DNA of 14,698 bases from Podochytrium sp. JEL0797 (Eukaryota; Chytridiomycota; Chytridiomycetes; Chytridiales; Chytriomycetaceae), in NCBI GenBank assembly GCA_027596195.1, contig JADGJG010000653.1, forward strand, positions 1 through 14,698, written 5' to 3'. The position numbers were made by a program, and so were the translations under genes. The notes below the pieces were generated by a model, which saw only the letters and a program-made list of their open reading frames with translations, had not been told where the DNA came from and ran no database searches. This document shows, in pieces, positions 1,608-13,514 of the stretch (its first letter is position 1; every line of letters begins with the position of its first letter).

Positions 1608-4600
1608 ATGGCTTCCCCCGGCTCTCCCGCTGATGAGACAGCACAGCCAGCGTCCGTAACTGGTACCGTACAGCGCAGAGACGATCGTCCAACAACTCAC
1701 CACAACTGCACCCCAACCATACAGATATCAAGTCTCCCGACATCGTCCCCATCAAATGGGTCGCAACCTCCCCACCAACCAAACACGCCCTCGGCGATCC
1801 AGACAAATGGATTGATTCTGCTGATACTGCTGCGGAGACCAACGTGGTTGATCATCCGATCGAGGACTCGTTGGACCCGGTCGGTCTCGCAAAAGAGTTG
1901 GTGAGTGGCAGTGCCGCACAAGCCCGAATTTTTAATCAAAGGTTGTAATGCGATTTTTTTGGCAGCTCACTTTGCGCGAGGATTTGAAGATTCTCGCTCT
2001 TTCACGTCAAAAGAATTTTCGCAAGGCCGAAGCGAACCCTCGTCTCGTCGCGTTCGTGGACGCAGTCGCCCCCGAGGACAGCTCGGACAAGACCCGCCAG
2101 ACTGTACCGCGGTACATGCAAGTGTTGGAACACGCCGAAATGATTGTCCGTGCGTCCGCTGCATCCAAGGATGCGTCCAAAACTCCACTAGAGTTCATGT
2201 CGCTGTTGGAAGCCCAGCTCGTCATTCGCGAGCTCTCGAAAGAGCTGGTTGTCAAGGAGCAAGAGTTGAAAGCTAAGCAGCAAGAGTTGGAGGAAAAGGA
2301 CTTGGTGATTAGCGAATTGCGCGAGTCAGCTGAGTCTTTCACGAACAAGCTCAACGAGACTTCCTCCGTGTCAGAAACCCAGGCTGTTGCCAGGAATCCA
2401 CCCACCCCGACTGTCGCCACTACCATGGATTCCGTTTCTGGACTCCTGGGAAAGATCCGATGTACTTCTGGGTCCTTCTTCAACCCTCTGTTGGGTTCTC
2501 GCCCCCCAGCCGCCACTTCGGCCGAGACCGGAATTCAACCCCTAGTTGGTCAAATGGTGCCGGATGCCTCCTCCACGAGCAAGAAAACTCCTGCTCCCGC
2601 CACACCTGCTTCGAAGGAATCCACGACCCCGGATCCCAAATTCGGATCCCCCGACGACCCGTCCGCGTCCGTCACCGCATGCAGCGATTGGTTCCAATGT
2701 GCCGAAACGTACGACTTTTTTATTTCGTATCGCGTGGCCACGGATGCACACACGGCCATGGAGCTTTATTTCCGCCTCATCAACCAACGCATTTCCGACG
2801 AGTATGGGCAAACGAGGCAGGTCAAGGTGTATTGGGACAAGGAGTGTTTGAAGAAGGGGCAGGAATGGCATGTTGGTTTCGTTGAGGGACTCAAAAACTC
2901 GAGGTGTGTGTTGATGTTGATGTCGCCGGGAACGTTGGAGGGTTTCCAGTCGTCGAATGCGAGGATGGATAATGTGTTGTTGGAGTGGGAGACGGCAATT
3001 TTGGCGGCGAGGAAGTATCTCTGTGTTGCACAGCCTGGTATGTTCGTTTTGAGATTTTGGTTGCGTTGCTTGCGGTTTCGAACCAGCCAACTCACTGACC
3101 CATTTTTTATTCCAGTGTTCATCAGCGACTCGGCGAAACATATCAACGCTCTTGACATCAACAACTACATTCGGTCCGACGAATGCCCGAAACTGCAACC
3201 GGGGGGAACCAAAACCCAACAACTTTCCGCCTTCACGACCCTTTCGGCAGCCATGAACCTCCAAGGCGTTCCTCTCGACGTGTCCGAAGTGTCTTGGACC
3301 ATCCCCGACTTGATCAAGGCATTGCAAACCTTCAGCCCCCTCCAATCCAAAGAGGCCGCTGAACTGTGCGAGATCGAGGCGAGCTTCAAAAAGTACTTTC
3401 CGACGGAGGTGTTTGGGTATCCCTGGGAGCACAAGAAGGGGTTTTTGGATGCACGCAAGTTGACGGATCTCAAGCTTTCGTTCAAGAGTGAGATTCTCTC
3501 CGCAATTGGTTTCTTTGATGGTTTCGAATGTTGTGCACTCATTTCGCGGTTTCATCCGTCCACCATTTCCCCCCATGCAGAGTTCCCGAGTATGTCCAAA
3601 CTGTCGATGGAAGTTCTTGCGCATGGCTTGTCGCAAGATTTCTCCTTCCTGAGCGAACTCAATCTCAAATGTAAGAGGGGTGTTGTGATTTTGGGTTCGA
3701 TCGGTCCCGAAGAAAACTCAACAACCAACTAACTTCAGGCGTCAACATTGAGAAAAAATCCACCTGGAACCTTCTCGCCTCGGCCTTGACCGTCAACAAG
3801 TCTCTTGTGCACTGAACCTCACCGAAAACGACATTACGGGTATCCCCGCGCTCCATCTCGCGATTCGTGATCACCCAACTTTGACGTTCGTACTTGTGGG
3901 CTCGGGATTTGACCCCATGCCGCTGCTCAAGCGAACCAAACTGGAAAATTACAGTTGCTGGTCGTGTACTCAAATTGGGCTGAAGATTTTCGTGGAGATG
4001 TGGAATGTGGGGAAGCCGGGCATTCAGGAATTGGTGTTCGGTTCCACTCTTGAGTCCATGCGGGATGAAGAGGTTCCTCCTGAATTGGGTCCAATGCTGG
4101 CGCGCGTGGGTGGACTGGAGTCGCTGATCATCAAGACGGAAACGCCGTCGTTTTTCGATGCCACCGCTAAATGAACATCGACAGCTCGTGCGCAGAACAC
4201 ATCAAAGCAATGATCCAGAACTGCAAAAGGATGTCTTACTTCGAGTTATCCAAGAACCCGCTCGGGGACGAAGTGATTGTTGCTATCTGTGAAGGAATCA
4301 CCGACAAGACCGAGTCAGCACATGTTGAGCTCCACCTTCAAAGTACAAACACTTTCGTTTCGATCCGCTTTAAATTGTTTTTGTTCACTCACCGATCCAT
4401 CACAGAAACGAACATGGGCGATGTGGGGGTGAAAGCGATTGCATCTTTGGTGACCCACCAACTCATGGCGCTTGAAAATTTGGACATTTCTGGTATATGG
4501 CGAACCATGGGACTGTGCGATCATAACATCGATTTTTCCAGAAAACGATTTGACACAGGATGGAATTCGCGAGCTCGGTAACGCGTTGATGAAAATGACG

Positions 4601-6001
4601 GCTCCAACGCTCAAAATAATCGATTTGCACGGTTTGCTTCACCCGAGTCCACCATATTCCAGGCGGTTTATCAGCTCCGACTAACGGTCTTTAATCTTCT
4701 TCATGGCATCAAACTCGTGTTTTCGCCAAACTCGGCAACATTTAGTCAATGGTGAGTTTGAGATATCCCTGGGTTGTTGGAGAGAATAGAAAGCATTCAA
4801 AATTCCAATAAGCGAATACAAAGTTGTTCACAAACTATTACTAGCCAACGAGGATGAAACGGGGGTAGAGAATATCCAGCCATGGACAAAACAAAGGTTG
4901 GTAGTAATTCGGAGCTATTTGAACGGGCCTTCACGCTCAAACCAAACAACAGTCGCGCCACCCAAAAAGCAAGCAGCTCCGTGGAGGAATGCGTTTTGTG
5001 ATGCCTTGATTTCGCGTTCGGCTGGCGAATTCTCTCAAATTGAGGAAATCAGTTTCTGCAGTTGAGCATTTTGTTTCGCCTGCAAAGTGCCGTTTTTGTG
5101 TATTCTGACTCCCGCCTGGCCCAACCCCCAACCCCGACAGAGATGGGATTGTGCGATGAGGATTTCAATCTGATGGATTTCTCTCGTAAATAATCAAAAT
5201 TCTAGATTGCGGAAACGGACCCGAAGGCTTGGAATCGATCGCTGACGCGGTGAAAACCCCCCAGTGCTCTGTGGACAACTTGAATGTCAGTAACTGCGGG
5301 TTGGGAGATGCTGGAGCCGCGTTGTTCCTGGACCATGCGACGGCGTCCAAGGTGATCACTTTGGATTTGTCTGGTTTGCGCTGTTGTTTTGCGCACCCAT
5401 TCGTAGCTTTCCGCATTCGATATTTACAACTTGTTTCATGGCAGACAACGAGATCCAAGGAACGAGCGGATTTACTGATGTCCCCAAGGATCAGAAACGG
5501 GGACATCACTTCGTTGGATCTTTCCGGTAATTGACTCAGGGAAACAGGTTCTGTTTCAAACAGCTGAATTTCATTTACTTTCCTACTTCAGGCAACAAGT
5601 CGCTCACTCTTGAATTCATGAGAGACCTTGGGGTGCTCCTCGGGCAGGCCGGCTTGGAAGCCAGCAAGAGACAAGCGGACGCCATTGAAGCAAGATGGGT
5701 GGAAGTCTCCGCACAGAGAGCGTTGAACCAACCAGCTGAAAGCGACCCCAAAGGGGAATCCTTGAGTAACGATAACGCGCCAGATGATTCTGAACTCCCA
5801 GCTACCAAGGAAGATATTGAGGTTGAATATTCTGGATTTGTCGAGCTCGATTTGACGGGTGAGCATGAATGAATCGCGCTTCTTGTCCAACTGCTGGCTG
5901 AACCACACCAATTTCCAGGAACAAACTGCGGCTTGGAAGGCGCCAAAGCAATTCTGGCAGTGTTATATGTAACAGAGATTCCATGTAGTTCGCTCGTGTA
6001 G
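1608..6001 (+). CDS. TIR-domain LRR protein, multi-exon, LRR half frame-broken
   Basis: The supported start is ATG 1608. Exons are 1608-1662, 1725-1900, 1966-3037, 3116-3508, 3581-3670, 3739-4342, 4406-4492 and 4542-4631, then an unresolved stretch, then 5206-5373, 5445-5526, 5592-5858 and 5919-6001. The 3509-3580 intron is optional, since it reads through in frame. Residues 1-155 have no known domain; about 158-205 is a heptad-rich coiled coil; about 324-465 is a TIR domain. TIR evidence: box 1 YDFFISYR at 326, box 2 VYWDKECLKKGQEW, and LLEWETAILAA, where E419 aligns with the NADase catalytic glutamate. Residues after about 560 form RNI-type LRRs, for example LSELNLK, LDISEND and ITLDLS. There is no NB-ARC or NACHT motif between TIR and LRR. 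TIR domains act as NADases or signalling adaptors; an immune or self-recognition role here is inference. Three frame breaks (near 3813, 4172 and 5484) interrupt the LRR half. If real, translation stops at 3813-3815 after 620 aa. Confidence 0.65.
2698..3185 (+). other. TIR domain coding segment
   Basis: This marks the TIR domain within the larger gene. It starts at AETYDFFISYR, and a 78-bp intron (3038-3115, GTATGT...CCAG) interrupts the last strand. Splicing gives ...AQPVFISDSAK, which restores the usual hydrophobic beta-D/beta-E strand pattern (cf. IVPII in SARM1). The joined frame across the intron is what identifies the acceptor. The W-E pair in LEWETAI supplies a candidate catalytic Glu, as in enzymatic TIRs. 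NADase activity is not shown by sequence alone. Confidence 0.75.
3739..6001 (+). pseudogene. LRR region with frame breaks (decayed or mis-assembled)
   Basis: RNI-type LRRs run through this segment, but not in one frame. Near 3813, reading SLVH must jump frame to continue as NLTENDITG. Near 4172, DATAK must jump to NIDSSCAEH. Near 5484, in a CCCC run, NEIQGTSGFTDV must jump to RNGDITSLDLS. Supporting evidence: exon 5445-5526 is 82 nt and would be 81 (27 codons) with one base removed. Exon 3739-4342 is 604 nt and would be 606 with two bases restored. The other LRR exons are multiples of 3 (87, 90, 168 and 267 nt). Each break is therefore a single-base indel. Either the LRR half is a pseudogene, or the assembly has uncorrected indels. 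Confidence 0.55.
4632..5205 (+). other. Unresolved segment inside LRR gene with partial LRR exons
   Basis: The exon ending at 4631 (TLKIIDLH) has no convincing acceptor for several hundred bases. An open frame from 4790 to 5061 ends in an LRR-like segment (FCDALISRSAGEF, then QIEEISFC). It could splice (donor after 5061, acceptor CGACAG near 5140) to a short piece reading KMGLCDEDFNLMDFS, ending at 5185. Only 20 bp (5186-5205, GTAAAT...TCTAG) separate that from the next clear LRR exon, which starts CGNGPEGLESIADAV. A 20-bp intron is far below the others in this gene, so this part may be a deletion scar or mis-assembled. The exon model here is tentative. Confidence 0.35.
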
Positions 6002-6236
6002 AGTGGGTTTGGTCTTGTGTGCGGCAACTTGTCAGAACTTGACAATTCGGTCGACGCGAAGTGGTGGTTTTGACGCGGGTGTTTGGCAATGCGTGGAGTA
6101 GATGACCTTTTAAAATGCAGCGACTTTTCAACAATTCGGTCGGTGCACAAGGTGATCAATGAAGCTCGAGTAGAAACCTTCCTCCAAAACATCCGATCAA
6201 TAACTCAACACAACACAACAGAATGAATGTACGCAC
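6002..6236. other. Downstream region of the TIR-LRR gene
   Basis: The LRR frame ends at TAG 5999-6001. Beyond it, a 41-codon open stretch (6101-6226, with DDLLKCSDFSTIRS and VHKVINEARV) follows a TAG that could be an acceptor. It may be a further C-terminal exon, but I found no donor giving a matching phase. ACAATTCGGTCG occurs twice (around 6042 and 6130). Nothing else is recognised. Confidence 0.25.
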
Positions 6237-6278
6237 CTCCACAAAGTATGCAATAAATGAAGCAAGTACTTTGTGGAG
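6237..6278. repeat. Perfect 12-bp inverted repeat (hairpin)
   Basis: CTCCACAAAGTA at 6237-6248 is perfectly inverted as TACTTTGTGGAG at 6267-6278 around an 18-bp loop. An inner TGC/GCA pairing extends the stem with a 2-base bulge. Eleven bases of the left arm also form the start of the window. The arms end in TA, so they could be abutting ends of TA-flanked elements, or a simple hairpin between converging genes (TIR-LRR on + and transposase on -). Confidence 0.7.
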
Positions 6279-6288
6279 AGAAAAAAAA

Positions 6289-6350
6289 AAGAGCGCGCCG
6301 AAATTAACCCGACAACATCAAGAGCGCGCCGAAATTAACCCGACAACATC
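6289..6350. repeat. 31-bp perfect tandem duplication
   Basis: Two identical 31-bp units, 6289-6319 and 6320-6350, each contain GAGCGCGCCGAAATTAACCC. They follow an A-run at 6281-6290. A partial third GC-rich echo, GACGCGCC, follows. No coding frame is associated. Confidence 0.9.
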
Positions 6351-6636
6351 GCCGACGCGCCACCAAACAAATAAAACAACGTAGGACAATTAGAATTCAG
6401 CCACCAATCAGCCACCAATTCAGAGTCGGAAAGTAATAACGTATTGACGACTTTGGCTGAGGAAGTGGCCATTTCATGCGAGATCTCTGTGCGACTGGCC
6501 TTGCGGCCAAACGCTTTCTCCTCCCGGTGAGTTTTTCATAGAATCATACTCGTTTAGGGATGTTTCATTGTTGTGTGAGCTTAGGTCCCCCATTTTTTCG
6601 TCCATCCAATCGAAGCACTTCTCAACAACGATTCAT
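6351..6636. other. Spacer 3' of the transposase gene
   Basis: No gene is seen. GCCACCAAT recurs twice around 6400-6420, and there is a TGGCC...GGCCA inverted repeat near 6497-6511. This is the 3' flank of the minus-strand transposase. It could hold an element end, but no terminal inverted repeat partner was found on the far side. Confidence 0.4.
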
Positions 6637-9417
6637 TTATTCCATCAACTCATCCACGATATCAATGATCACGAACGAATGCTTGCCAACCTGCATCCTC
6701 TTCAGTCGCCTCACGTACGACTCCTCGGCATCAACAACGAAGACCTCGTCAGTCATTTCCTCGCCATACTCCAACCATTGAACACTGCCCTCCATCCTTG
6801 TTTCGCATTTTGACTGCATGAGAGGGCGTCTGTACAGCATCTGGGAACACGCCTGACCACATTCTGGCGTCGCAGCTGCAAAGTACATCCCCAACTCAAA
6901 GTCCCCACCCACGCGAACCAAGATGGCATCATCGCGCTTGAGCTGTTGCCAGTTGAGAACACAGTTTCCCGTGCTATGTGTGAATAGCGTCTCAGTGATC
7001 TCCTCACTTGACTCTCGCGAAATGAATGTCCCATTTGGTGGCGGAGACAGCGTCTTGTTACTTCGGGGCAGCACGAATCTACGATATTGATTTTGAGGCG
7101 TCAGATTGATTTTTTTGCTCGATTGAATAAAGACTTACTGTTTGGGGCATGAATGGTCGAATCCCTTTGCTTGGTTCAGCAATTCCAAAAACATCACAGC
7201 CACATGGCGACGAAAAACGCCAACCGAGACGTTTCTGTTGTTGGTATTGCTGTAGTATGACTTCAGGACCTTGATCAGGTGCTCGTTGACGAAGCACCAA
7301 TGGTCGCGAGCAGGTCCGTATCGGGCGAGATTCTTGGGGACATGTTGAAAGAGGTGGTTGTTGAATTTGAAGTCCTTTGGGTGCACGGATCCGTAGACCA
7401 TCTCTTTGAATTGGCGCGCAGAAATGTCGTGAAGGCAGAGGATTCCAACAACGCGAATTCGAAAGCACCAGTATCGAAACTCGCGCAGTTGATTCACCGT
7501 GGCCTTCTCAAACACCCCCAGCCGCATGAGAATCCAAGGACTGGCGAGGAAGAACTCCTTCAACCCAAACGCCTTCAAGCCTTTCAATGTGTTCGAGTCC
7601 TTGAACTCGTATTCGGCAGGAATGCGACTGAGCTTGCAGTACTCCTCAAAGACGCGATTCATGCGTGGGAAGAGGTTCTCAAACTGAACTCCCTTGATGA
7701 GGATGAGGAAATGGGTCTGGAGGGCGCCAAGAAATTCTTGGTGCATGATGTCGGGGACTTCGGATTCGGGAACGTTTTGGCCGGGCCAGGTACACGTGAC
7801 TGGAATCTCCTCTATCCCCAGTGCCTTGGCAGTCGTCGCGGTTACACCAGACATCTTCCCGGGGCCTCCATTCGCTTCCAGGAGTTGTTGGTGGTAGCTG
7901 GCGTTCCTGGCGGGTTTGAGTTTGGAAGGGTCTTGGGCTGCCAGAGGGAAATCGCGGTACTCAGTCAGGCAGCCACCACATGCGAAGGTGTGGGTCACAG
8001 ACACGTTGAGCCCAAGGATCCGCTTTCTGGCTGGTGTGTCCCCAGTGTATGCCCACACAAAGGCAAACACAAGGAAGCGAATCCCTTCAATTGTCATTTC
8101 CACCCCACGTGCAAACTCCTCCAACTCTGGAGTGTAGCATTCCAGCAGCGGGCCCATGCCGTTTTGTTTGACTCCGAGAGCTGAGGCAAGCATCATGGGA
8201 ATGACTCCCAACCCCTTGGTGGAACCGCGGATTGCCCTCGACGCCTGAGCAGGGGCCATGCAAAAGAGAGTCTGACCCTTGCTGGCTTTCACCTTGTCCA
8301 TCCACGAGAAGTCATCGCTGTATGCGCCAAGGTGGAGAACAATGACCTCCCTCCGGAGCTCGAGTGGGAGGCCTTCGTTGCGTTCGAACGCCGGCTTCCA
8401 GAGATGGATGGTTCGTCGGAGAATGGAGAGAAACTCAGCTCCATGCTCAACGCGGTCAACCCCATACTTTTCCGGGTACGTCTCGAGAGTCTTGATCCGC
8501 GCGTCCAAGACGGATTCCGTGTTGTCGACTGATAAGAAGGGAAGGACGTACTCGCGAACAGAAGTACGGATAGACTCGCGAATGATGGGAGATGCCAGCC
8601 ACAGGAAACACGCGGAGTGGATGGTCAGAAATGGGGTTTTGTTGACTTTTCCGGCAACCTCGTGTTCGAGCGTTTTCACGTCCAGAATGGACATGACGCT
8701 TTTCAGGATGCGCTTCTCCAGCGTCTGGAACGTAGACGGAGAACCGCAGTCTTGTGCCATCGAGATAGTTCGATTCAAGTCTGTCAGCGGCATAGACAGT
8801 TTCGTCAAAGCCGCGTACTCAGCGTGTGTGACCTTGTGCGTCGTGCAGTGGAAGTAAAGATCAAACTCGAACTTTGACTGTGGAGAGTTGTCTATTTTCG
8901 ATTGTAGTTCCGACAACAGGGGCCACTCTGACGGGAAACAAGGGAATGAGAAAGTGACAACAGGGAAGCCACCAGGCTGGCTGAATCCTGGCTCTTCACT
9001 CTCATTTTCCTCGACAGAACCGCCATGACCCCCTTCACTCTCCACCTCCTCACCGAAACCGCCAAGACCCGATTCCTCGCCCTCACTCACAACACCATGA
9101 CCCCCTTCACTCTCCACCTCCTCACCGAAACCGCCAAGACCCGATTCACTTTCGAGTTTCGCTGCTTTAGAAGCTGGTTGGGTTGCAACAGGCGCTGAAG
9201 CTCCACGTTTAGAAGGGCGTGCCATAATGTGGGTTTTGAGGTGATCCAATACGGCATTGCGTGATACGGAATGACCAACAGCGAATTCAACGTGGCACAG
9301 AGCAATCGGACAGTGCCAACTTGGCAAGGTTGCCAATTCATGCTTCATGGTTTGCAAGTGAGCAACCAACTTGGAAAGACTCGTCCAATCTGTTGAGCAG
9401 AAGGGACACGATGGCAT
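6637..9417 (-). CDS. C2H2 zinc-finger CACTA/Tnp2-like transposase
   Basis: There are two exons on the minus strand, 9417-7139 and 7078-6637, joined across a 60-bp intron (GTAAGT...CGTAG) so that CPKQ continues into FVLPRSNK. The product is 906 aa. I chose the start at 9417 (MPSCPFC) because the zinc finger begins right after it and the further-upstream frame overlaps the divergent gene. Finger 1: C4-x2-C7-x12-H20-x5-H26. Finger 2: C36-x4-C41-x17-H59-x3-H63. An acidic Gly/Glu repeat follows at about 90-150. The core has YSDDF at 366-370, TGDTPA with D460, a CGGC pair near 483, and PDIMHQEF with D556/H559. This order (D-D/G-F, then G-D-P, then C-x2-C, then D-x-M-H) resembles Tnp2/Plavaka-type CACTA (CMC) transposases, which cut and paste DNA. 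The frame is intact across 906 codons, so it may be active or domesticated. The superfamily call is by eye. Confidence 0.6.
9023..9147. repeat. 53-bp direct repeat, 72-bp period, inside transposase
   Basis: Identical 53-bp copies lie at 9023-9075 and 9095-9147, offset by 72 bp (24 codons), so the frame is kept. They encode the repeated acidic segment ESGLGGFGEEVESEGGHG in the linker after the zinc fingers. The identity at DNA level suggests a recent duplication. Confidence 0.9.
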
Positions 9418-9496
9418 GTTGGGTCGGTGAAAAACTTGAAGACAAAAAAAATCGCCAAAACCATCACCGCCAAACCTCCCCCCCATACCCCGCTCC
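9418..9496. promoter_or_regulatory. 79-bp bidirectional promoter spacer
   Basis: Only 79 bp separate the two divergent start codons (9417 minus and 9497 plus). The spacer has an A-run (AAAAAAAATCGCC) and a C-rich tract on the plus strand. The minus start has A at -3 (AACATG). A shared promoter is inferred from the spacing; no specific box is claimed. Confidence 0.5.
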
Positions 9497-11811
9497 ATGA
9501 CCATCGACAGCAGCGTTTCTGGCTCCATCACCTCCTCCCAGCCGATTGCGACCCAATCCAGCCCAGCGGACCCCGGGGAGGTCGTCCGTTTGCGTGCCGA
9601 GGTCGAATCAATGCACGACACCATCCGCACCCTCCAACACACCATCACCACTCAGCAAGCCGAAATCGACCGCCTCCTGTCGTTCCATCAACGCCGGCAC
9701 CAAGACGACAAGATCTACAACAAGGCCGTGAAAGACGGGTTGAGGTGTGTAGCGGAGTTTCGGTTATCTGTCGTTATCTATCTGTGCTTTGCTGATCCAC
9801 CCAACCAGCTTGCGTGATGCCGATCGTCTCAAGACCAACACACCCACACCAATCAAACCTGAGGCTTTCTTCTTGCCTCCCTCCAAGCCTTCTGCCGTGT
9901 TAGCCACACCTCCAACCACGCATCCCCGGGTGTTATCAAAATCCACCACCGCAGCTGTCGGCAAAAAGGAAGCTGTGAAACAGGTATGCTTTCACCTGTC
10001 TGAAGCTATATGAACTCATCACTCTCTCTGCCATTTCAGATTCTCGTGGAGCTTATCAACATGTGGAACTCGTCTCCGCCAGCCTCTCGTGTCCACAAGA
10101 ACATGAAACTGTCCAACGCACCACAATCACGGAACCATCCCAGCGCGTCTACCGACTTCCAGGCCATGTTTAAGAACGACACCAGGTTGAAGGAAGACTC
10201 AATCAACATCATCACTGCCGCGCACAAGAAGTCTCCCGAAAGCCCCCCTCCCTCAAACCCCTCAATTGCAGGGTCCATCCTCCAAACCTGGATCAACGGT
10301 CTCGAACCAGATGGCTGCTTGATTGAGTACATGTATGAGCTGTCCACCAACACGAAATTCGACTCCTCCACGCCGGCGTTTTCTGCTCTCCACTCCATGA
10401 TATGGGCCATTTTGGTCTCTTGGAATGATAAGGTCAAGGGTTTTTTGAAGGACTCTCGAAAAGGTGAATTTGACGTGTTACTTGCCTTTTTTCCTTACGT
10501 GTTTTTTTTTGTTAGAATTTCTCAACAAGAGCCACATCACACCCCAGGAGCCTGTCGTTCAAGACGAGACACCTCCTGCACCACCTGCTTCTCAAATCCC
10601 AAAGAGGAATTTCATGTGGAAGACGCATTCATTTTCGCGTCATCCAGTGTCTGTTTCTGGAGCGGGTCTCGCCTTTGTGAAGTCATTGACGAATGGGACC
10701 ACCAACCCGAAAGATATCGAGAATCAGCTCTCGGCTTTGGATCAAGATCTCATGGACGGAACTGTGAGTGTTTTGTTTTCACAATTCGTGTTTTCATGTT
10801 TTTTTGCAGATTGACTTCTCCAACGCGACTCATTTGAAACTCTTCAAGCCTTGTATGATGCAGCTGATGACGAGGCTGGCCCACTTGGGTGTCACGACAA
10901 CTATCTCCGACTTTATTGATTCCTTCTTTGGGGGCTTGCTTTCTCTCTTGGCGACCATCCATTTCTCCTCGCGCTTTGACCAACTTGATTCATTCCTTGA
11001 TTCCGACCATTTCGAACACGGTGCCCATGATGGCGATTTTGATGCGATTTTCGTGGCTCTATCCAAGTCGACCAAAAAGGCGTGCCTGTCCATCCAGATT
11101 CTACAATTTATCGTGGCTCAGCTCGTTGACGATGACAGCATAATGGATCGGTCTGCCTCTGATTGGATCCAATTTGTCACCAAGGACTTGAAACTGCAAT
11201 CACATGAGGTGGATGGATCTCTGAAGTCGAATTCGCTTGACGATTGTGTCCATCTTCTTGGTTTTGTTTTTCTGCACTTTGGCTTTGATTCTGTTCAACA
11301 CCGCGTGAGGGATGTCCCTGCTCTCCCTGTGCCAGCGCCACACCTGCAGGGTTTGCGCCTTGTAATAGACGCAATCATCCGCGTGTTGTTCCAACGGTTC
11401 GGTTTTTTATTACGTTAATCTAGTTTTTATCTTTCTTCTCTTAGAAATCAGGCTGCTGACTTTTGGGCAAACTGGCCATTCAAGCCACTTGGCAACAACC
11501 ATGCTCGCTTCTTCATTGAGAACAAGGTCCCTTCGTTTCTGAGTGTCACGACCGCCCGCGAGATTGCTGCCGACAAGAGTGCTGCTACCAAAGTCCCAAG
11601 CGCCCAACCCTCTGCCCGTAAGAGGAATGCTATGAAGAAGACCAGCACCAAGAGAACCAGCTCTACCGCCAGAAATCCTCAACCAGACTCCATTCCCTTC
11701 TTGACCTCCTCGGCCAAAAAACGAAGCACCAGCAAGACTGAAGCTGAACCGAAGGGAAAGCGTACCAAGAAACCGGTTGTGCTTGATGAAGTGTTGGTTG
11801 ACAGCGAGTAG
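9497..11811 (+). CDS. Unknown coiled-coil, basic-tail protein divergent from transposase
   Basis: There are six exons: 9497-9744, 9809-9983, 10040-10463, 10516-10763, 10810-11396 and 11445-11811. Introns are 46-64 bp with GTGTGT, GTATGC, GTGAAT, GTGAGT and GTTCGG donors, and all phases join without a stop. The product is 682 aa. Residues 27-66 form a likely coiled coil (VVRLRAEVESMHDTIRTLQ). Residues about 83-150 are Pro/Thr/Lys-rich. Residues about 140-560 are a helical, mostly hydrophilic region I do not recognise. The last 90 residues carry Lys/Arg clusters (SARKRNAMKKTSTKR, AKKRSTSK, PKGKRTKK) like bipartite nuclear signals, then an acidic end. No enzyme motif is seen. Head-to-head placement with the transposase suggests either an accessory protein of the same element (compare TnpA of CACTA elements) or a host gene sharing a promoter. 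The function is unknown. Confidence 0.75.
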
Positions 11812-11957: not shown

Positions 11958-12164
11958 CAGGGGTTTCACGGGGATTTTCGGGGATTCCCCTGGGATTCCC
12001 CATATTTCTCCCGATTTAGCTTTTTCCTCGCGATTCCCCGAGGAATCCCCGGGGAATCCCCGGGGGATTTCCGAGATCCACCGCGTTTCCCCGAGGTTTC
12101 CCCGGGGATTCCTCGGGGATTTCCCAGGATTTCCCCGGGGATTCCTCAGGGACTCCCGGGGGTC
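11958..12164. repeat. Array of GGGGATTCC / GGAATCCCC palindromes
   Basis: About ten imperfect copies of GGGGATTCC, or its complement GGAATCCCC, are packed into about 200 bp in alternating orientation, often fused as CCCCGGGG. TTCCCCGGGGATTCCTC repeats exactly at 12098 and 12131 (33-bp offset). The array can fold into many hairpins. Open frames across it (Gly/Pro/Phe/Arg-rich) reflect the repeat and are not a gene. Single units resemble kappa-B-type sites, which may be coincidence. Confidence 0.8.
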
Positions 12165-13442: not shown

Positions 13443-13514
13443 GGGCCCAACCGGGAATTGAACCCGGGACCTCGTCTACCCTAAAGACGAATCATACTAC
13501 TAGACCATTGGGCC
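13443..13514 (-). tRNA. tRNA-Pro(AGG)
   Basis: The minus strand folds as a complete 72-nt cloverleaf. The acceptor is GGCCCAA paired with TTGGGCC plus discriminator C. The D arm contains TGGTCTAGTAGTATGATTC (A-box). The anticodon stem is CGTCT/AGACG with loop TTAGGGT, giving anticodon AGG (Pro). The T arm is CCGGG-TTCAATT-CCCGG (B-box). There is no intron. It decodes CCU, and CCC after wobble modification. The body matches the usual eukaryotic tRNA-Pro consensus. Confidence 0.97.

Follow-up and report, generated by a model that had tools for sequence, protein, structure and literature searches.

A damaged paralogue of a coiled coil-TIR-LRR gene in Podochytrium sp. JEL0797, and a family of chytrid TIR-LRR proteins in which no NTPase was found

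The locus and its unbroken paralogue

The window considered here, i.e., the whole stretch of 14,698 nucleotides (nt) that was analysed, is contig JADGJG010000653.1 (C616) in the assembly GCA_027596195.1 of Podochytrium sp. JEL0797, an organism which the taxonomy record places in the Chytridiomycota, Chytridiales, Chytriomycetaceae, and whose genome amounts to 24.4 Mb in 995 contigs. Positions 1608-5958 are a damaged paralogue of a gene encoding a protein with a coiled coil, a TIR domain and leucine-rich repeats (LRR). A chytrid origin, considered probable in a preliminary description made from the letters alone, is borne out by a second copy on contig C320 and by relatives in six other genera. 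The layout proposed at the time, namely a TIR joined to LRR without a nucleoside triphosphatase (NTPase), stands for the family, i.e., the C320 gene and these relatives, but not for the window copy, which is broken after its first LRR.

In our own gene model, the C320 paralogue (L017, 448-5602) is unbroken, with 18 exons encoding 1351 amino acids and introns of 46-93 nt, 16 of the 17 in phase 1, although the model depends on the splice sites chosen. It differs from the GenBank protein P0001 at several exons and at the C-terminus, and the N-terminus of P0001 seems to include a fragment from a neighbouring copy. The gene DNA is further matched at least by pieces on C92 and by a fragment immediately 5' of the gene on C320; of these four loci, including the window, the C320 gene is alone in yielding an unbroken model. 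Several of its LRR exons measure 87, 90, 168, 171 or 174 nt and lie between phase-1 introns, and therefore the loss or movement of exons leaves the frame unchanged; this exon pattern resembles that of vertebrate NLRP genes.

Because blastn homology of the window to the C320 paralogue begins at 1607, the start of the window copy was placed at the ATG at 1608. The GenBank protein of the window, HDU98_009903 (P0002; 804 amino acids), fuses an upstream open frame onto the TIR exons and ends at 3813, the first stop past a frameshift. The copy is organised as follows.

1608-1662, + strand: exon 1, from the ATG at 1608; first 44 nt aligned at 73% to C320, splice site by analogy with C320
1725-1900, + strand: exon 2; 87% identity to C320 exon 2, gap-free
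1966-3037, + strand: exon 3, with a long helix, interpreted as a coiled coil, at about 2185-2358, and the TIR start from 2704 (C320 alignment)
2704-3333, + strand: TIR domain, interrupted by the intron 3038-3115
2983-2985, + strand: codon of E417, the Glu aligned with SARM1 E642 (profile alignment)
3116-3487, + strand: exon 4, with the TIR end and the linker; 19 codons lost in frame relative to C320 (C320 alignment)
3581-3670, + strand: exon 5, first LRR; 90% identity to C320
3739-4162, + strand: exon 6 (LRR), with a 1-nt deletion near 3812, TGA at 3813-3815 and the 3' end lost (C320 alignment)
4174-4342, + strand: exon 10 (LRR), lacking its first 5 nt and an acceptor AG, fused to the exon 6 remnant (C320 alignment, blastn)
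4406-4492, + strand: exon 11 (LRR) (C320 alignment)
4542-4629, + strand: exon 12 (LRR), 88 of 90 nt aligned (C320 alignment)
4641-4742, + strand: piece positioned 3' of the model stop codon in C320 (blastn, C320 model)
4962-5060, + strand: exon 8, displaced (C320 alignment)
5141-5176, + strand: first 36 nt of exon 9, displaced (C320 alignment)
5206-5373, + strand: exon 13 (LRR) (C320 alignment)
5447-5524, + strand: exon 14 (LRR), with a 5-nt deletion (C320 alignment)
5592-5857, + strand: exon 15 (first 130 nt by blastn, remainder by codon alignment)
5919-5958, + strand: first 40 nt of exon 16, where homology ends (C320 alignment)
5961-6400, + strand: dispersed repeat in place of the 3' end of the gene; copies on C446, C36 and C474 begin at 5961

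Breakage of the window copy

Exons 1-5 (1608-3670), encoding the N-terminal part, the long helix, the TIR and the first LRR, have kept their reading frame and their GT/AG splice sites. In the exon-by-exon alignment to C320, the damage begins at exon 6, just past the first LRR, and exons 7, 17 and 18 were not found. The window copy is deleted from the remainder of exon 6 up to where exon 10 begins. Behind exon 12, in a block (4938-5176) 84% identical to C320, lie the displaced exon 8 and 36 nt of exon 9, the greater part of the latter exon being lost. Within the gene also sits a piece belonging to the 3'-flank of the C320 paralogue (blastn). An intact gene in the window was rejected after alignment with C320, as was an intron at 4162-4174, there being no acceptor AG at the start of exon 10.

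The stop codon formerly assigned to the gene (5999-6001) lies in the dispersed repeat, which starts at 5961. Matches to this repeat are found on C446, C113, C36, C733, C474, C501 and C35; among those listed, three of the seven (C446, C36 and C474) also start at 5961, and the remaining four begin further inside the repeat. No clear terminal repeats for this 3' element appeared among the 25 listed of the window's 37 inverted-repeat pairs. As for its internal organisation, the repeat holds two tandem 31-bp units at 6289-6350 and, as read by eye, a palindrome, CTCCACAAAGTA...TACTTTGTGGAG, at 6237-6278; the first bases of the window also read TCCACAAAGTA.

TIR-LRR proteins in chytrids

A search with the C320 protein retrieved 13 proteins, 12 of them bearing chytrid names and none of the 13 having a precomputed NACHT or NB-ARC domain; source genera other than Podochytrium and Cladochytrium are presumably chytrids as well. 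The same architecture, which the preliminary description had recommended to look for in other chytrids, was found in six further genera, the subfamily thus spanning Podochytrium, Siphonaria, Obelidium, Rhizoclosmatium, Entophlyctis, Physocladia and Chytriomyces (the member of the latter starts within the TIR), and Pfam detects TIR_2 together with an LRR family in five of the seven. Over the ten pairs formed by five members, identity reaches 60-79% in the TIR, 38-70% in the linker and 28-47% in the LRR, and such a conserved TIR beside fast-changing repeats is suggestive, at the sequence level, of a sensor-effector protein. In the second and the third protein search, scoring was limited to the 7993 and 7997 candidates, respectively, with most words in common, and distant relatives may be missed; in contigs of GTDB, a TIR-profile search gave 19 pattern matches and no confirmed relative.

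A second TIR-LRR subfamily comprises Podochytrium HDU98_002663 (P0031; C61, L018 about 3047-8000), members in Siphonaria and Entophlyctis, and a Physocladia protein (46% covered); in its GenBank models HDU98_002663 and P0029 (Entophlyctis), a methyltransferase-like domain occurs N-terminally, below cut-off. In Cladochytrium and Blyttiomyces, one protein combines TIR, LRR and ankyrin repeats. Chytrid TIRs are also found with an NTPase, as in P0019 of Zopfochytrium, where the TIR goes with NB-ARC; P0047 carries precomputed Pfam domains for TIR, LRR and a Ras/Roc-type GTPase, i.e., a TIR-LRR protein with an NTPase. Within the Podochytrium genome, TIR_2 gives 13 exon-level matches and NB-ARC none. 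Two of the former have NPHP3_N/NACHT domains right after the TIR exons (L023 3155-4609 and L024 1424-2803, on C786 and C488), each pair presumably making up one gene, and Podochytrium seems to possess both TIR layouts, with and without an NTPase. Two other loci bear more than one TIR, namely L020 (1788-4031), where two consecutive TIR matches are preceded by about 300 residues without a Pfam match, and L019 (5269-6856), a probable double-TIR gene with a DSVLLE motif in the second TIR.

The repeats are of the ribonuclease inhibitor (RNI) type, i.e., beta-alpha units of about 28 residues, and the family profile matches ribonuclease inhibitor with an E-value of 7.1e-45. In the P0006 model, TIR matches extend up to residue 560 and LRR matches, including RanGAP and NLRP3, start from residue 568; in whole-model structure searches generally, the match lists are taken up by LRR or TIR, and other parts of the proteins are barely covered. 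Pfam matched no NTPase in seven scanned proteins and no NACHT or NB-ARC in ten window pieces, and neither ARM nor SAM at E <= 0.1 in the seven proteins. The Walker A motif is absent from all 11 proteins inspected (P0012, P0016 and nine subfamily members, of which some are incomplete) and present in the NTPase-bearing controls P0019 and P0027. An NTPase in a missed exon, formerly envisaged, was not found in the C320 gene, where introns of at most 93 nt leave no room for one. Ras-like GTPase matches of the P0002 model (Foldseek, E 1.6e-3 and weaker, from rank 5) were read as a shared alpha/beta sandwich and not taken as an NTPase, since P0002 is devoid of Walker A. In aligned members, the TIR precedes the LRR, which differs from the Toll-like order (LRR, transmembrane helix, TIR). 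The highest 19-residue hydropathy windows range from 1.1 to 1.9 across the 11 proteins and fall in the repeats for eight of them; with only the top window per protein considered, this constitutes a weak test of membrane insertion.

The TIR domain

The domain adopts a TIR fold like that of SARM1, TIR-1 and RUN1, its best sequence match in the PDB being the NADase SARM1. Comparison with SARM1, as suggested at the outset, indeed gave a shared fold and a Glu kept at the catalytic position, only this residue is E417, which the profile alignment pairs with the catalytic SARM1 E642, and not E419 as first proposed. The Glu is invariant in the nine aligned TIRs; SARM1 Y568, D594 and G601 are also kept, the Tyr of FISYR and the Asp and Gly of the BB-loop being invariant in 9/9. 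Among the seven scanned proteins, Pfam TIR_2 exceeds its cut-off of 28 bits in five (P0001, P0003, P0007, P0008 and P0012), narrowly misses it in P0004 with 27.9 bits, and falls short of it in P0002 of the window with 24.9.

Interpretation

The chances seem about even that the gene copy in the window was disabled only recently and belongs to a chytrid family of cytosolic coiled coil-TIR-LRR proteins, in which the LRR gates the TIR enzyme directly. In intact members, the C-terminal arc of RNI-type LRR would probably be the sensor and the coiled coil would gather the TIRs; upon ligand binding to the LRR, the SARM1-like TIR, with its Glu at the catalytic position, may act on NAD+ or a related nucleotide, no nucleotide-binding switch intervening between LRR and TIR. 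For the direct control of the TIR enzyme by the LRR taken alone, the odds appear at best even and possibly somewhat lower. More tentatively, these proteins could form a class of chytrid cytosolic receptors, with RNI-type LRR gating a TIR enzyme without an NTPase, subject to birth-and-death turnover of which the window copy would be a casualty. The architecture, the fold, the conserved Glu, the failure to find an NTPase, the TIR as most conserved part and the disablements of the window copy are computed; that the proteins sense a ligand, assemble, catalyse, reside in the cytosol and bring about an immune or cell-death outcome is what we infer.

Several observations weigh against this interpretation, in the first instance as regards catalysis. 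SARM1 W638 is replaced by an Asn invariant in 9/9 aligned TIRs, H640 by Leu, and K628 is not conserved, with a Gly at this position in the window; since K628, W638 and H640 mutants have reduced SARM1 activity, catalysis may be weak or absent, and the SARM1 alignment stops short of H685/E686. These substitutions would suit a non-enzymatic scaffold in the manner of the adaptor MyD88, signalling through TIR-TIR contact with further TIR proteins encoded by this genome, where partners exist among the 13 TIR_2 matches, including the two beside NACHT/NPHP3_N; moreover, the accessible part of one study indicates that the presence of the Glu is not always linked to activity (PMC7075850). Such a scaffold is nonetheless rather unlikely considering that the best PDB sequence match is an NADase and that none of the four residues, i.e., the Glu, the Tyr of FISYR and the Asp and Gly of the BB-loop, varies in the nine aligned TIRs. 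Respective to the sensor, the N-terminal part (28-44% identity over the same ten pairs) is as divergent as the LRR, and therefore divergence alone does not mark the LRR as the sensor, while hydropathy above 1.6 in three of the 11 proteins (P0003, P0012 and P0006) makes membrane contact possible. Chytrids possess flagella, where RNI-type LRR proteins occur, and axonemal LRR proteins, e.g., LRRC34 and DRC5, are among the matches of the LRR profile. A structural role of this kind, with the TIR incidental, is nevertheless highly improbable, as ribonuclease inhibitor and NLRP proteins outscore the axonemal ones in the LRR profile list and the TIR is the most conserved part.

The damage to the window copy itself must be weighed in the same way. 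The ratio of nonsynonymous to synonymous substitution rates (dN/dS) between the window and C320 amounts to 0.42 upstream of the TIR, 0.16 within it and 0.22 over exon 5 and the remainder of exon 4. Past the frameshift, it is still 0.27 (399 codons; exons 9, 14 and 16 left out), and because it is low beyond the break, the latter would be recent relative to the divergence of the copies. Of the 87 TIR positions that do not vary in seven relatives, one is changed in the window only, one in C320 only and eight in both, so that the window TIR is without clear decay. Taken together, the low dN/dS and the site counts, which also weigh against a broken gene, mean that the break is recent, or partly an assembly error, or that a truncated coiled coil-TIR protein is still in use. 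In addition, dS amounts to 0.29 before the break and 0.63 after it, and intron identity also differs sharply between the 5' and 3' parts, which suggests that the 5' part was gene-converted between the two copies.

A useful truncated product, i.e., a coiled coil-TIR protein ending at 3813 (613 amino acids in our own model) and acting, for instance, as partner of the C320 protein, is unlikely. It would account for the frame and GT/AG sites kept in exons 1-5, for the TIR dN/dS and for the single window-only change, and the product annotated in GenBank ends at the same place, albeit with a different N-terminus. Pairwise dN/dS, however, cannot split the two lineages, and a recent break would yield equal numbers; besides, D380V affects a site invariant in the seven relatives and exon 4 lacks 19 codons compared to C320. 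Less likely still is an intact gene whose breaks arose in assembly, even though the assembly counts 995 contigs, this one terminates in about 100 consecutive G and dN/dS is low past the frameshift: at 84% identity to C320, the displaced block 4938-5176 is no chimera of the C320 contig, the breaks are of several kinds, and the 3' junction is the end of a repeat present elsewhere.

Other features of the window

On the minus strand, an open frame of 838 amino acids (7135-9651) has a weak match to a Plavaka transposase (E 0.027, under cut-off), and a stretch 90% identical to it is found on C521. A tRNA-Pro (AGG) lies at 13443-13514, also on the minus strand, and a tandem repeat of 11 bp, GATTCCCCGGG, in about 12 copies at 12032-12162. 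The run of about 100 G at the contig end (14598-14698) is likely an assembly artefact, and a Pfam scan of 10768-11415 gave no match.

Comparison with known systems

The family layout is real and, as far as searched, undescribed. That such an arrangement was little described in fungi agrees with the literature search, no paper on NTPase-free fungal TIR-LRR proteins being among the matches listed from open-licence PubMed Central (PMC) literature, but TIR had already been reported in NOD-like receptors (NLR) of Chytridiomycota, going by the accessible text (PMC9815663). In the portions available, a survey of 49 fungi from 2010 records no TIR (PF01582) proteins, LRR receptors confined to four of the fungi and no combination of LRR and NACHT (PMC2939053), and a survey from 2014 no fungal NLR bearing LRR (PMC4986451); excerpts of other papers state that TIRs occur in fungi (PMC7075850) or contain nothing on TIR-LRR (PMC4102429, PMC6321704). 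The conserved chytrid TIR-LRR family fills the gap left by these two surveys. Fungal NLR with TIR or HET share with it the fungal origin and a TIR-related effector (PMC9815663, PMC10197012, both in part), but possess NACHT or NB-ARC and ANK, TPR or WD repeats, and no LRR, according to the sections seen (PMC4986451, PMC9815663).

Compared to plant TIR-NB-LRR proteins (TNL), e.g., RUN1, RPP1 and Roq1, the chytrid family is without NB-ARC, its LRR are RNI-type and a helical region stands ahead of the TIR. RNI-type LRR are shared with animal NLRP and NLRC proteins, except that NACHT is lacking and the TIR replaces PYD or CARD; the GenBank names “NLR, CARD 3” and “NACHT, LRR and PYD 14” of two members probably stem from this likeness. 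Toll-like receptors likewise hold TIR and LRR in one protein, yet in the chytrid family the order is reversed, the LRR are RNI-type and there is no sign of a transmembrane helix between TIR and LRR.

In SARM1, a sensor is known to control the TIR with no NTPase involved. As in SARM1 and TIR-1, with which the TIR fold and the catalytic-position Glu are shared, a sensor and an assembly part would control the TIR in the chytrid family, with LRR instead of ARM, a coiled coil instead of SAM, and a TIR that is central rather than C-terminal; K628, W638 and H640 of SARM1 are not kept. As such, the family offers a natural setting in which to ask if a TIR can be governed by LRR sensing where no nucleotide drives the assembly, a question testable via the C320 paralogue and its orthologues in other chytrids, not via the window copy alone. 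If true, direct gating would represent a third way to couple a sensor to TIR catalysis, beside plant TNL and SARM1.

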